Below, in pieces: positions 60,304 through 61,843 of a stretch of 64,000 nt of DNA. The stretch's first letter is position 1. Each line of letters opens with the position of its first letter. The notes under the pieces are model-generated. The model saw only the letters and a list, made by a program, of their open reading frames with translations. It was not told where the DNA came from and ran no database searches. The translations under genes were made by a program, and so were the position numbers. The stretch lies in contig NZ_LASZ01000007.1 in NCBI RefSeq assembly GCF_001014645.1, forward strand, positions 124,001 through 188,000, given 5' to 3'. The DNA comes from Luteimonas sp. FCS-9 (GTDB lineage: Bacteria > Pseudomonadota > Gammaproteobacteria > Xanthomonadales > Xanthomonadaceae).

Positions 60304-60394
60304 CCGACGCGTTGCCTGCGTCGGGAGGGCGGCTAATACAAGACCCTTCGGGGGAATACGCCCGCCGGCTGTGTGCGGTTTCTAGCCTCCCGAC
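60304..60394 (+). promoter_or_regulatory. structured 5' leader with alternative stems
   Basis: Several stems can form. CCGACGC (60304-60310) pairs with GCGTCGG (60318-60324). GTCGGGAGG (60320-60328) pairs with CCTCCCGAC (60386-60394), which excludes the first because both use 60320-60324. GGCGG (60328-60332) can pair with CCGCC (60362-60366), competing at its first base, and CCC-TTCG-GGG (60344-60353) is a UUCG tetraloop hairpin. The leader ends about 57 nt before the first start codon. Mutually exclusive stems suggest a switch or a structured RNA; I recall similar leaders before XAC0095-type genes. Confidence 0.6.
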
Positions 60395-60451
60395 TTCCCG
60401 TCGCCGTTTCCGGCTGGCGGGTCACTTCGATGGACTGAAGGAGGCAATACG

Positions 60452-61132
60452 ATGTCGAACCACGAAACGAACGACACCCAACGCGCCGGCTACTTCGTGC
60501 CGGAAGACGACCGGACACGGCTGGCGAAGCTGCGCGACCACATGGAGTTCCTGTCGCGTCTGGCGCAGCCGCGCACGCGGGACGAGGAGTTGGACGACCC
60601 GCCGGAAGTCAGCCACAACGAACTGGCGACGTGCCTGGCCATGCTGGCCGAGCAGGCCGAACTGGTGCTGGAGGCGATGGCATGGCGGCCACGGTCGCAT
60701 TGGCTGGCCGAGGCGGACGCCTCCGCACCCGCAGCCGAAGTCGCCGAGACGCCCGCTGCACCGGACGCGCCGCCGTACGCGGCGCAGGCGGCGACAGCGA
60801 GCCCATCGGCGGGTTCGGCCGATGTGCCGGAGAGTTATGTCTTCGGCGTCACGATCGACCAGGCCGATGCGCTCGACCGGTTGGTGCAGACGCTGATGGC
60901 ACATGGCGACGTGCTGGCGTCGGGCCATGAAGACGATCTGGCCGATGCCACGGTGCCGACGCTGGGGCTGGCGATCTCGGAAGGCGCGGATGCCGTGCGG
61001 GAAATCCTGGACCGGGTGCAGGACCAGCTGATCGAACGCGCTGGCAAGCCGCGTGGCGGCGTGCGAGAGGACACCCCGGTGTACGGCGCGGTGCCGCCGG
61101 CGCCCGCGCCGGTGCGGCCGGCTCTGCACTGA
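60452..61132 (+). CDS. XAC0095-like protein with extra C-terminal domain
   Basis: A 226-residue soluble protein. Residues 10-90 match the XAC0095 family: GYFVPEDDRTRLAKLRDHME, FLSRLAQPRTRDEELDDPPE, LATCLAMLAEQAELVLEAMA. After an alanine/proline linker a second domain (YVFGVTIDQADALDRLVQTL, MAHGDVLASGHEDDLADATV) follows, and this domain alone is repeated in the protein two genes on. AAGGAGG lies 9 nt before the ATG at 60452. It is the first gene of the unit with a SymE-like protein. XAC0095 proteins are small and of unknown function; association with a SymE toxin suggests a regulatory or antitoxin role. Confidence 0.78.
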   Translation: MSNHETNDTQRAGYFVPEDDRTRLAKLRDHMEFLSRLAQPRTRDEELDDPPEVSHNELATCLAMLAEQAELVLEAMAWRPRSHWLAEADASAPAAEVAETPAAPDAPPYAAQAATASPSAGSADVPESYVFGVTIDQADALDRLVQTLMAHGDVLASGHEDDLADATVPTLGLAISEGADAVREILDRVQDQLIERAGKPRGGVREDTPVYGAVPPAPAPVRPALH

Positions 61133-61207
61133 TCGGCTGACGGGGTCGGGTTCGCCGCGGGTCCTGCTGCACAGCGGCGGGCCCGATCCCATTGTCGACC
61201 GCCGTTC

Positions 61208-61223
61208 GCGTTCGCGCGAACGC
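61208..61223. promoter_or_regulatory. 16-bp perfect palindrome before the SymE-like gene
   Basis: GCGTTCGCGCGAACGC is fully self-complementary and lies 22 bp upstream of the SymE-like start. It could be an operator or an RNA hairpin near the ribosome binding site. Confidence 0.5.
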
Positions 61224-61245
61224 CCGTTCGTCACGGAGGATTGCC

Positions 61246-61575
61246 ATGCATCGCCAACCCGAGACCGCCCACGCCGCCGAGCTCGGGGCCGAGTTCACTT
61301 CGTCCGCATCCAGTCCGCGCCCCAACGCGGACGTTCTCTCCCATCCTGATGACGACCGCGCCGCCCTGCCCCGCCGTCCGCGCCAGCCACGACGCTGTAC
61401 CGTCGGCGTCGACCATTACCCCGGCCGAGACCGCTACCGGGGCGACGACGAAGTGCCTTACCTGCGCTTGCGTGGGCTCTGGCTCGAAGCGTTGGGCTTT
61501 ACCGTCGGCACCCGCCTGCGGATCACCGCCGGCGCCGGCGTGCTGACGCTGACCGTCGACGGCACGGAGACCTGA
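61246..61575 (+). CDS. SymE-like toxin protein
   Basis: A 109-residue protein. The C-terminal half matches the SymE family: YRGDDEVPYLRLRGLWLEAL, GFTVGTRLRITAGAGVLTLT. SymE is an RNA-damaging toxin with an AbrB-like fold, controlled in E. coli by the antisense RNA SymR. GGAGGA lies 7 nt before the ATG at 61246. It is encoded 113 nt after the XAC0095-like gene and 1 nt before the next gene, so the three form one transcript. No antisense RNA candidate was identified. Confidence 0.75.
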   Translation: MHRQPETAHAAELGAEFTSSASSPRPNADVLSHPDDDRAALPRRPRQPRRCTVGVDHYPGRDRYRGDDEVPYLRLRGLWLEALGFTVGTRLRITAGAGVLTLTVDGTET

Positions 61576-61576
61576 C

Positions 61577-61843
61577 ATGCGCCGCGACCGTCCAGCCTAC
61601 GGCATCAGCCTCGACCAGGTGGACCGCTTCGACAGCCTGATTCGCATCATCGTGGCCCAAGGCGACGTGCTGTCGTCGGTCGATCCGCGCCAACTGGAAG
61701 CCGACAGCGTGCCCGCGCTCGGCGATGCGATCTACGAAGCGGGCGTGGCCCTGCGCACTTTGATGGAGCAGGTGGGTGAGCAGGCGTTGCACAGCAATGA
61801 AGCCGCGGGCACGTTGGACAGCCAGGGCACCGCATACCGTTAG
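61577..61843 (+). CDS. small homologue of the XAC0095-like C-terminal domain
   Basis: An 88-residue protein ([40 protein letters not shown]) homologous to the C-terminal domain of the first gene (60452-61132); both share [13 protein letters not shown] and EAG segments. It begins 1 nt after the SymE-like stop, indicating translational coupling. No enzyme motif is visible. As a small partner next to a toxin it is a candidate antitoxin; this is an inference. Confidence 0.65.

Follow-up and report, generated by a model that had tools for sequence, protein, structure and literature searches.

An sRNA-Xcc1 leader with covarying, locus-specific paired boxes precedes XAC0095 and SymE-like genes in Luteimonas sp. 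FCS-9

How a SymE-like gene might be controlled when it stands between two companion genes is the question raised by a compact unit of Luteimonas sp. FCS-9, located at 60452-61843 of a stretch of 64,000 nucleotides (nt) that was analysed as a whole and is called the window here (positions 124,001 to 188,000 of contig NZ_LASZ01000007.1). The unit comprises genes for an XAC0095-type protein, a SymE-like protein and a small homologue of the second domain (D2) of the first protein. An earlier reading of the DNA letters alone, the original prediction, had described it as an uncharacterised toxin-antitoxin or regulatory module behind a structured leader. We show that the leader contains the Rfam RNA sRNA-Xcc1 (RF02221) together with two pairs of complementary boxes that covary between loci, and that such leaders precede XAC0095, SymE or antirepressor genes; the unit does look like a regulatory module. 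In our judgement the operon is probably governed by an autoregulatory silencing leader of the C4/CI/IsrK kind with a locus-private code, which drives XAC0095 operons, some of them with SymE. As a leader of this kind carrying an Rfam RNA with a different published role, we regard it as real and unusual.

The leader matches the curated RF02221 model at 74.3 bits over its full length (1-87; gathering threshold 53), placing sRNA-Xcc1, a C4-like element, at 60320-60402 (+) with its closing stem P1 at 60320-60328/60386-60394. The same genome holds seven sRNA-Xcc1 copies above the cut-off and eight XAC0095 domains; all seven RNAs lie directly before such a domain, and the eighth domain is in the second gene of the unit on contig C28. 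Together with the covarying long-range pairing described below, these results bear out the structured leader. Its proposed start at 60304 was too far in, since DNA homology to three paralogues of the same genome begins at 60183-60186, at a TTGACA, and to three others at 60195-60207. Because homology starts at or near this motif, the putative promoter and the leader are assigned to the unit.

Read directly from the + strand, the predicted promoter consists of TTGACA, 17 nt and CACACT at 60186-60214, and is probably weak at -10 because a consensus scan did not list it. One of the motifs TTGAC, TTGCC, TTGAA or TTGAT lies 35-39 nt 5' of the first hairpin in 119 of 131 leaders (139 leaders with XAC0095 as first gene, less 8 in which a regular expression found no hairpin), a count for which no chance expectation was computed. 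This 5' hairpin (60222-60237, GGAG-CCUAGAAA-CUCC) holds box a1 (CTAGAAAC, 60227-60234) and is followed by box b1, which carries the locus-specific code CACACAG (60239-60245), and by a predicted intrinsic terminator within the leader (60251-60279, CCCACC...GGTGGG-TTTTTT), all on the + strand. On the same strand, box b' (CTGTGTG, 60369-60375) lies in the second hairpin loop of sRNA-Xcc1 and is complementary to b1, and box a' (GTTTCTAG, 60378-60385), in the 3' half of the RNA, is complementary to a1. The Shine-Dalgarno sequence of the first gene (AAGGAGG, 60438-60444, +) has no third copy of the code (box b2). All four pairs of the 5' hairpin are invariant in 58 leaders, which had been chosen by a regular expression for that hairpin, and 99.1% of the terminator cells are paired in these leaders; as these local stems hardly vary, they carry little information. 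The terminator stem has a mean predicted probability of 0.91 in 124 nascent 5' elements, and the consensus scan lists another, overlapping terminator site at 60270-60286.

To define the code, 177 leaders were compared, comprising 61 from the genus, 28 and a further 80 from the best-scoring family loci, and 8 from phages and plasmids. The 80 extra family loci are the best-scoring rows among the matches listed, not a random draw, with 10 candidates scored per genome; L001-L003 were dropped as duplicates of loci in genome G036, and locus L163 has no leader match. In the alignment, the stretch after the 5' hairpin and the second sRNA-Xcc1 loop vary between copies and are complementary within each copy. 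The loop code, mostly 7 nt long, occurs in 52 variants. An exact complement of at least 6 nt was present in the leader's own 5' element in 164 of 176 cases (one leader had no usable 5' window for exact matching) versus 842 of 29476 comparisons (2.9%) between leaders with different codes, and at a length of at least 7 nt the values were 160 of 176 versus 252 of 29476. When G-U pairs were allowed, the code matched in 171/177 leaders within the locus versus 1201/7662 comparisons between loci. A 5' element cannot be recognised in three of the exceptions (L092, L096, and L125 in its second copy), and it is present but non-matching in the second copy of L110 and in L111; L150 is rearranged so that its match falls outside the scored window, and the remaining exceptions pair via G-U. 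L096 passes only with G-U pairs, probably by chance.

Covariation was determined in the 140 leaders with XAC0095 as first gene, of which 5 without a hairpin by regular expression were removed and the remaining 135 thinned at 93% similarity to the 58 non-redundant leaders. Across the 15 pairs of boxes a and b, 96.6% of cells were paired (77.9% after shuffling), both sides had changed in 12 of 15 pairs, and the covariation score was 0.453, compared with 0.113 after shuffling and at most 0.081 when the partner was slid by 1-3 columns. The code helix (helix 2, b1:b') was paired in 99.5% of cells and covaried in all 7 pairs. Helix 1 (a1:a') was paired in 94.0% of cells with both-side changes in 5 of 8 pairs; one pair of this box, columns 10/190, was unpaired in 27 of the 58 leaders.

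The association with XAC0095 extends beyond the genome of the window. Among 52 genomes of the genus, RF02221 was found in 20 (61 places), the XAC0095 domain in 20 (74 places) and both in 18 (Fisher P 7.5e-10); the domain lies 81-97 nt past the RNA end in 52 of the 61 copies, and 22 of the 74 domain matches have no RNA just upstream. The RNA was present in 149 of 395 family genomes (147 over the cut-off; 23 of 54 genera) and in 16 of 185 class genomes (own genome included; 11 over the cut-off). The first gene behind the 177 sampled leaders encodes XAC0095 in 140 cases and SymE in 21; in one of the 140 (L177) the XAC0095 match sits in an open reading frame (ORF) other than that chosen by the start rule. 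As a separate observation, leaders are numerous in some genomes of genus g18 (L153-L222; as many as the 10 scored), and the ORFs behind them are short, of low complexity and XAC0095-like (MSTAPSMPASVP...), which may point to a family in decay or in rapid evolution.

In many relatives the code occurs a third time. It recurs over or beside the Shine-Dalgarno sequence, by at least 6 nt, in 15 of 21 leaders with SymE as first gene, 6 of 8 phage or plasmid leaders and 4 of 8 other leaders, and in 1 of the 140 XAC0095-first leaders (none at 7 nt or more). Over the entire sample, 22/177 leaders had such a copy at the ribosome-binding site (RBS) at 7 nt versus 39/29806 comparisons between loci. Of the six SymE-first leaders in which it is absent, four (L150, L168, L218, L229) have an XAC0095-type loop and flank, and phage Smp131 carries the two boxes at each of the three sites. 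Among the 11 class-level loci an ORF was assigned by rule in 9; in all 9 the 5' element holds a complement of 7-9 nt, and in 7 of them another one (≥7 nt) precedes the start codon, counts without a shuffled control, and in L257 and L259 SymE stands right behind the leader. These sequences suggest an ancestral order of a1b1 - terminator - a'b' - a2b2/RBS, with the RBS copy either lost from the XAC0095 lineage, to which the window leader belongs, or never present there.

Relatives of the leader also stand before antirepressor genes. A match was found in 12 plasmid and 7 phage records, of which 3 and 5, respectively, were examined; RF02221 was present in 7 of these 8. The genes behind the RNA are annotated as KilA-N (L160, L162), ant (L161) and BRO (L165); in Smp131 (L159) the RNA lies inside a coding sequence annotated as anti-repressor, in pSTJ2 (L164) a hypothetical protein follows, and the unannotated E. 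coli phage PPwrbA (L166) has two Ant-like ORFs that cluster with the L161 antirepressor. A Rac-SA53 version occurs in 160 of 5426 E. coli genomes; for 15 of these among the matches listed, the annotation is antirepressor in 13, ORF6N in one and nothing in one. Two side observations concern these records. The two leaders of PPwrbA, about 540 nt apart (2462-2551 and 3001-3086), differ in code, and an antirepressor-like ORF follows each of them. On a Xanthomonas plasmid (L163, 1303-4826), in which RF02221 was not found, a leader fragment lies beside IS5-like transposases and between two inverted SymE genes.

These genes link the window leader to phage RNAs of known function. The P4 seqA/CI and IsrK RNAs are described as leader RNAs controlled by pairing, and IsrK as a short, terminated transcript that accompanies a read-through mRNA (PMC4825925); c4 of P1/P7 is described as a sequence-specific silencer of antirepressor translation that accounts for heteroimmunity (PMC12197685). 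With C4 and P4 CI the sRNA-Xcc1 leaders share the order of upstream boxes, an RNA with complementary boxes and a coding gene, the code specificity and, in most phage and SymE-first members, the repeat of the box at the RBS. They differ in that the C4 model does not recognise them, that sRNA-Xcc1 stands outside Rfam clan CL00128 and that the RBS copy is absent from nearly all XAC0095-first leaders. The predicted layout is likewise that of IsrK of Gifsy-1, with a short terminated RNA and a read-through mRNA from one promoter that can pair with each other, although an antirepressor follows in IsrK and an XAC0095 gene here. In the seqA/CI region of phage P4, Rfam finds isrK (60.8; gathering 50) followed by C4 (74.9; gathering 45), in the same order. 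In Xylella fastidiosa De Donno, annotations for C4, isrK and sRNA-Xcc1 fall within 400 nt on one strand (1323982-1324381; PMC12189769), a site that may connect the families directly.

By analogy with these systems, transcription would start from the TTGACA promoter and most transcripts would stop at the terminator, at 60279, yielding an RNA of about 60 nt with boxes a1 and b1. Read-through transcripts would contain sRNA-Xcc1, which exposes a' and b'; this RNA, about 85 nt long and stable, could be released from them. Pairing of a1b1 with a'b' would decide whether the XAC0095-SymE-D2 mRNA is made or translated: released sRNA-Xcc1 would act in trans and silence the operon by binding nascent a1b1, as in P4 CI, and the short RNA would relieve silencing, as for IsrK. 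The sense leader would thus take the place of SymR, the usual antisense RNA of SymE, and the silenced cargo would be an XAC0095-type protein, here with a toxin-like SymE; a role of D2 is conjectural. Since box b is private to each locus, paralogous copies need not cross-silence, similar to phage heteroimmunity.

The original prediction had set the unit apart from a type I SymE/SymR pair, and the unit does look different from one. The Rfam search at E up to 1 gave no SymR, and an opposite-strand RNA was likewise not found, albeit in a scan that called no promoter on either strand and is rated insensitive because it also missed the + strand TTGACA. A regulatory RNA is present on the sense strand: sRNA-Xcc1 lies in the leader, with its complement in the 5' element. 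The unit shares with SymE/SymR of E. coli the SymE domain protein and differs from it by a sense leader and two companion genes.

Several observations weigh against a silencing leader of this kind. The Rfam search of the leader region at E up to 1 gave neither a C4 (RF01695) nor an isrK (RF01394) match. In L092 and L111 the pairing is lost although the first gene keeps its XAC0095 domain. The window leader is without the RBS code copy seen in phage and most SymE-first members, so the code cannot block translation in the same way. A switch at the Shine-Dalgarno sequence was considered, and the 5' element did not consistently change its predicted accessibility in the seven leaders of this genome; a terminator/antiterminator switch fared no better, as the stem is predicted to form whether a1b1 is blocked (mean probability 0.97) or free. 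Selection for distinct codes within a genome was also sought: of 163 within-genome pairs from 36 genomes, 7 share the 7-nt code (expected 6.4-7.7) and 1 shares the extended recognition sequence (expected 2.0-2.6; permutation P 0.26-0.41). Codes are shared as in random draws, so their distinctness is no evidence of such selection. The one pair sharing the extended code comes from a leader and gene duplicated in tandem next to a stretch of N (L125, 1021-2100, genome G001), possibly an assembly artefact.

As neither the accessibility nor the terminator predictions yielded a modelled switch, we retain as a serious, though less likely, alternative that the leader acts purely in cis, a1b1 and a'b' pairing within one transcript as a long-range helix or kissing element with no trans RNA. 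The pairing might then tune read-through, stability or translation and the code vary by compensated drift, a version to which we give the same limited credence. Such a leader would fit the folding predictions, in which the code helix has a mean pairing probability of 0.96 in 126 full leaders and exceeds 0.5 in 122, and it would fit the chance level of code distinctness. It fits less well with the discrete RNA of 88 nt detected on Northerns in Xanthomonas campestris, whose ends were mapped by RACE (rapid amplification of cDNA ends) in a way that, as described, does not separate primary ends from processed ones (PMC2996969). In most SymE-first and phage forms, moreover, the code stands twice, in the 5' element and at the RBS, and a two-place code resembles antisense systems with reported trans action (PMC4825925, PMC12197685).

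The toxin-antitoxin half of the original prediction, in which the XAC0095-D2 protein, the small D2 homologue or both would neutralise SymE, appears unlikely. D2 does occur on both sides of SymE, with possible remains of the third gene behind SymE in genome G007, and SymE comes next after XAC0095 in 36 of the 140 XAC0095-first leaders (11/54 in the genus, 25/86 in the family sample), with a 4-nt overlap in 9 of these 36 by longest-ORF start. However, SymE was not found behind the other 104 (some loci being cut by a contig end or covering 1.5 kb only), and SymE itself is first behind 21 of the 177 leaders. Leaders with XAC0095 and no SymE, and leaders with SymE first, suggest that neither partner needs the other.

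That sRNA-Xcc1 is mainly a trans regulator of unrelated chromosomal mRNAs, with an incidental position before these genes, is very improbable, because a shared target would tend to keep the targeting loop constant, whereas this loop is hypervariable and, at almost all loci, fits the leader in which it lies. In print sRNA-Xcc1 is a virulence-linked sRNA, and Chen reportedly described it in 2011 as trans-acting and under HrpG/HrpX control, which would speak for general targets. Many targets have also been predicted for it (PMC2996969).

By the covarying private boxes, the main partner of sRNA-Xcc1 may well be its own leader. The same boxes tie this RNA to the phage C4/CI/IsrK silencing RNAs that control antirepressors, a rule of cognate codes only could apply to many Xanthomonadaceae loci and to E. 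coli prophages, and the leader suggests how SymE could be kept silent without SymR and offers a handle on the function of XAC0095 proteins. That sRNA-Xcc1 lies upstream of symE in integrons of Xanthomonas has been published before: a 2025 report names this arrangement the most widespread integron cassette of the genus and suggests a mechanism unlike SymR (PMC12444791), and Kawano et al. (2007) had suggested control by small RNAs for SymE genes with conserved upstream nucleotides (PMC1891008). The window RNA belongs to the same family and differs in leading a chromosomal operon with XAC0095 first, in seven copies in one genome. In the available parts of the sRNA-Xcc1 literature surveyed, we met no paired boxes, code or antirepressor link, and in the library searched no paper named both sRNA-Xcc1 and antirepressor, nor did the papers naming sRNA-Xcc1 overlap with those naming XAC0095. 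More speculatively, and with little confidence, sRNA-Xcc1 leaders might represent an RNA "immunity" outside phages, in which every copy, be it chromosomal or carried by an integron or plasmid, keeps its own XAC0095/SymE cargo silent by a private code, so that an incoming element with an unfamiliar code would be switched on in the new cell (zygotic toxin induction) and one with a resident code kept silent. The set of codes present in a bacterium would in this way determine which mobile toxin cassettes become active.

The three genes lie in one direction (+), as had been described, with gaps of 113 and 1 nt. Gene 1 (60452-61132) encodes 226 amino acids (aa) with the XAC0095 domain at residues 14-76 and D2 at about 126-205, and matches the family model NF047335 at 66.7 bits (cut-off 34), confirming the predicted two-domain protein; all 45 aligned XAC0095 members match this model at E ≤0.01. 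The window protein shares the XAC0095 domain with this family and has D2 as an extra domain. An interaction of XAC0095 itself with HrpG has been reported (PMC2883993). The predicted structure of gene 1 (mean predicted local distance difference test score 70.2, predicted template modelling score 0.37) shows one helical hairpin at H18-38/H55-77 and another at H135-157/H167-190, with a linker of low confidence between them. For gene 3 and the D2 part of gene 1, no known family was found: the sole match in Pfam and NCBIfam was one to NCBIfam at E 0.16, PHROGs gave four weak families without a function (the commonest in 4 of 45 members; best E 0.00095), and the Protein Data Bank sequences gave two weak matches (best E 0.0049, a virion protein). 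Homology of D2 to the XAC0095 domain was rejected as well, since hhalign gave none, though both are predicted as helical hairpins.

Gene 2 (61246-61575, 109 aa) matches PF08845 (SymE) over residues 48-104 (E 4.9e-13, 49.4 bits, cut-off 29), so the middle gene is SymE-like as proposed; it scores 24.9 against the E. coli SymE equivalog NF010128, for which 132 is required. Overproduction of E. coli SymE inhibits growth (PMC1891008), and the gene 2 product may likewise be toxic. Gene 3 (61577-61843, 88 aa) shares 37.5% identity with D2 of gene 1 across 64 aa, in line with the recurrence of this domain as a separate gene, and Pfam and NCBIfam profile searches assigned it to no family.

The order XAC0095-SymE-small homologue, expected to be conserved across Xanthomonadaceae, is intact in only 3 of the 140 loci, all in this genome (C7, C5 and C23), where the other units are XAC0095-SymE, XAC0095-D2-XAC0095 or XAC0095 alone. 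A fourth copy of the order on C15 (L040, 5399-6703, -) has decayed: it has no leader match, SymE and gene 1 are interrupted, and the 88-aa ORF of gene 3 is present. In three related genomes the orthologous locus at icd consists of leader, XAC0095 and SymE without an intact gene 3, and DNA homology extends 64-106 nt into gene 3. In G007 (L255, about 380-560, -) the sequence after SymE resembles a decayed gene 3 by eye, with homology of about 105 nt into the gene. Gene 3 may therefore be ancestral at this locus and have been lost.

These orthologues at icd also led us to reject the unit as a precise mobile element, and comparison with genomes G005 and G047, which are without the unit, implies a larger island. 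In these two genomes the icd-side homology starts at 61951 and 61918, respectively, and the other side lies near 52.5 kb, so the region of about 52480-61917 upstream of icd looks like an insertion site with about 9.4 kb extra. Within it, 57000-60100 had no DNA match among the genus loci compared. The divergent neighbour of the unit (58464-59894, -) encodes a bacterial SEFIR-domain defence protein (PADLOC bSEFIR, E 1.4e-117; Pfam TIR_2/SEFIR).

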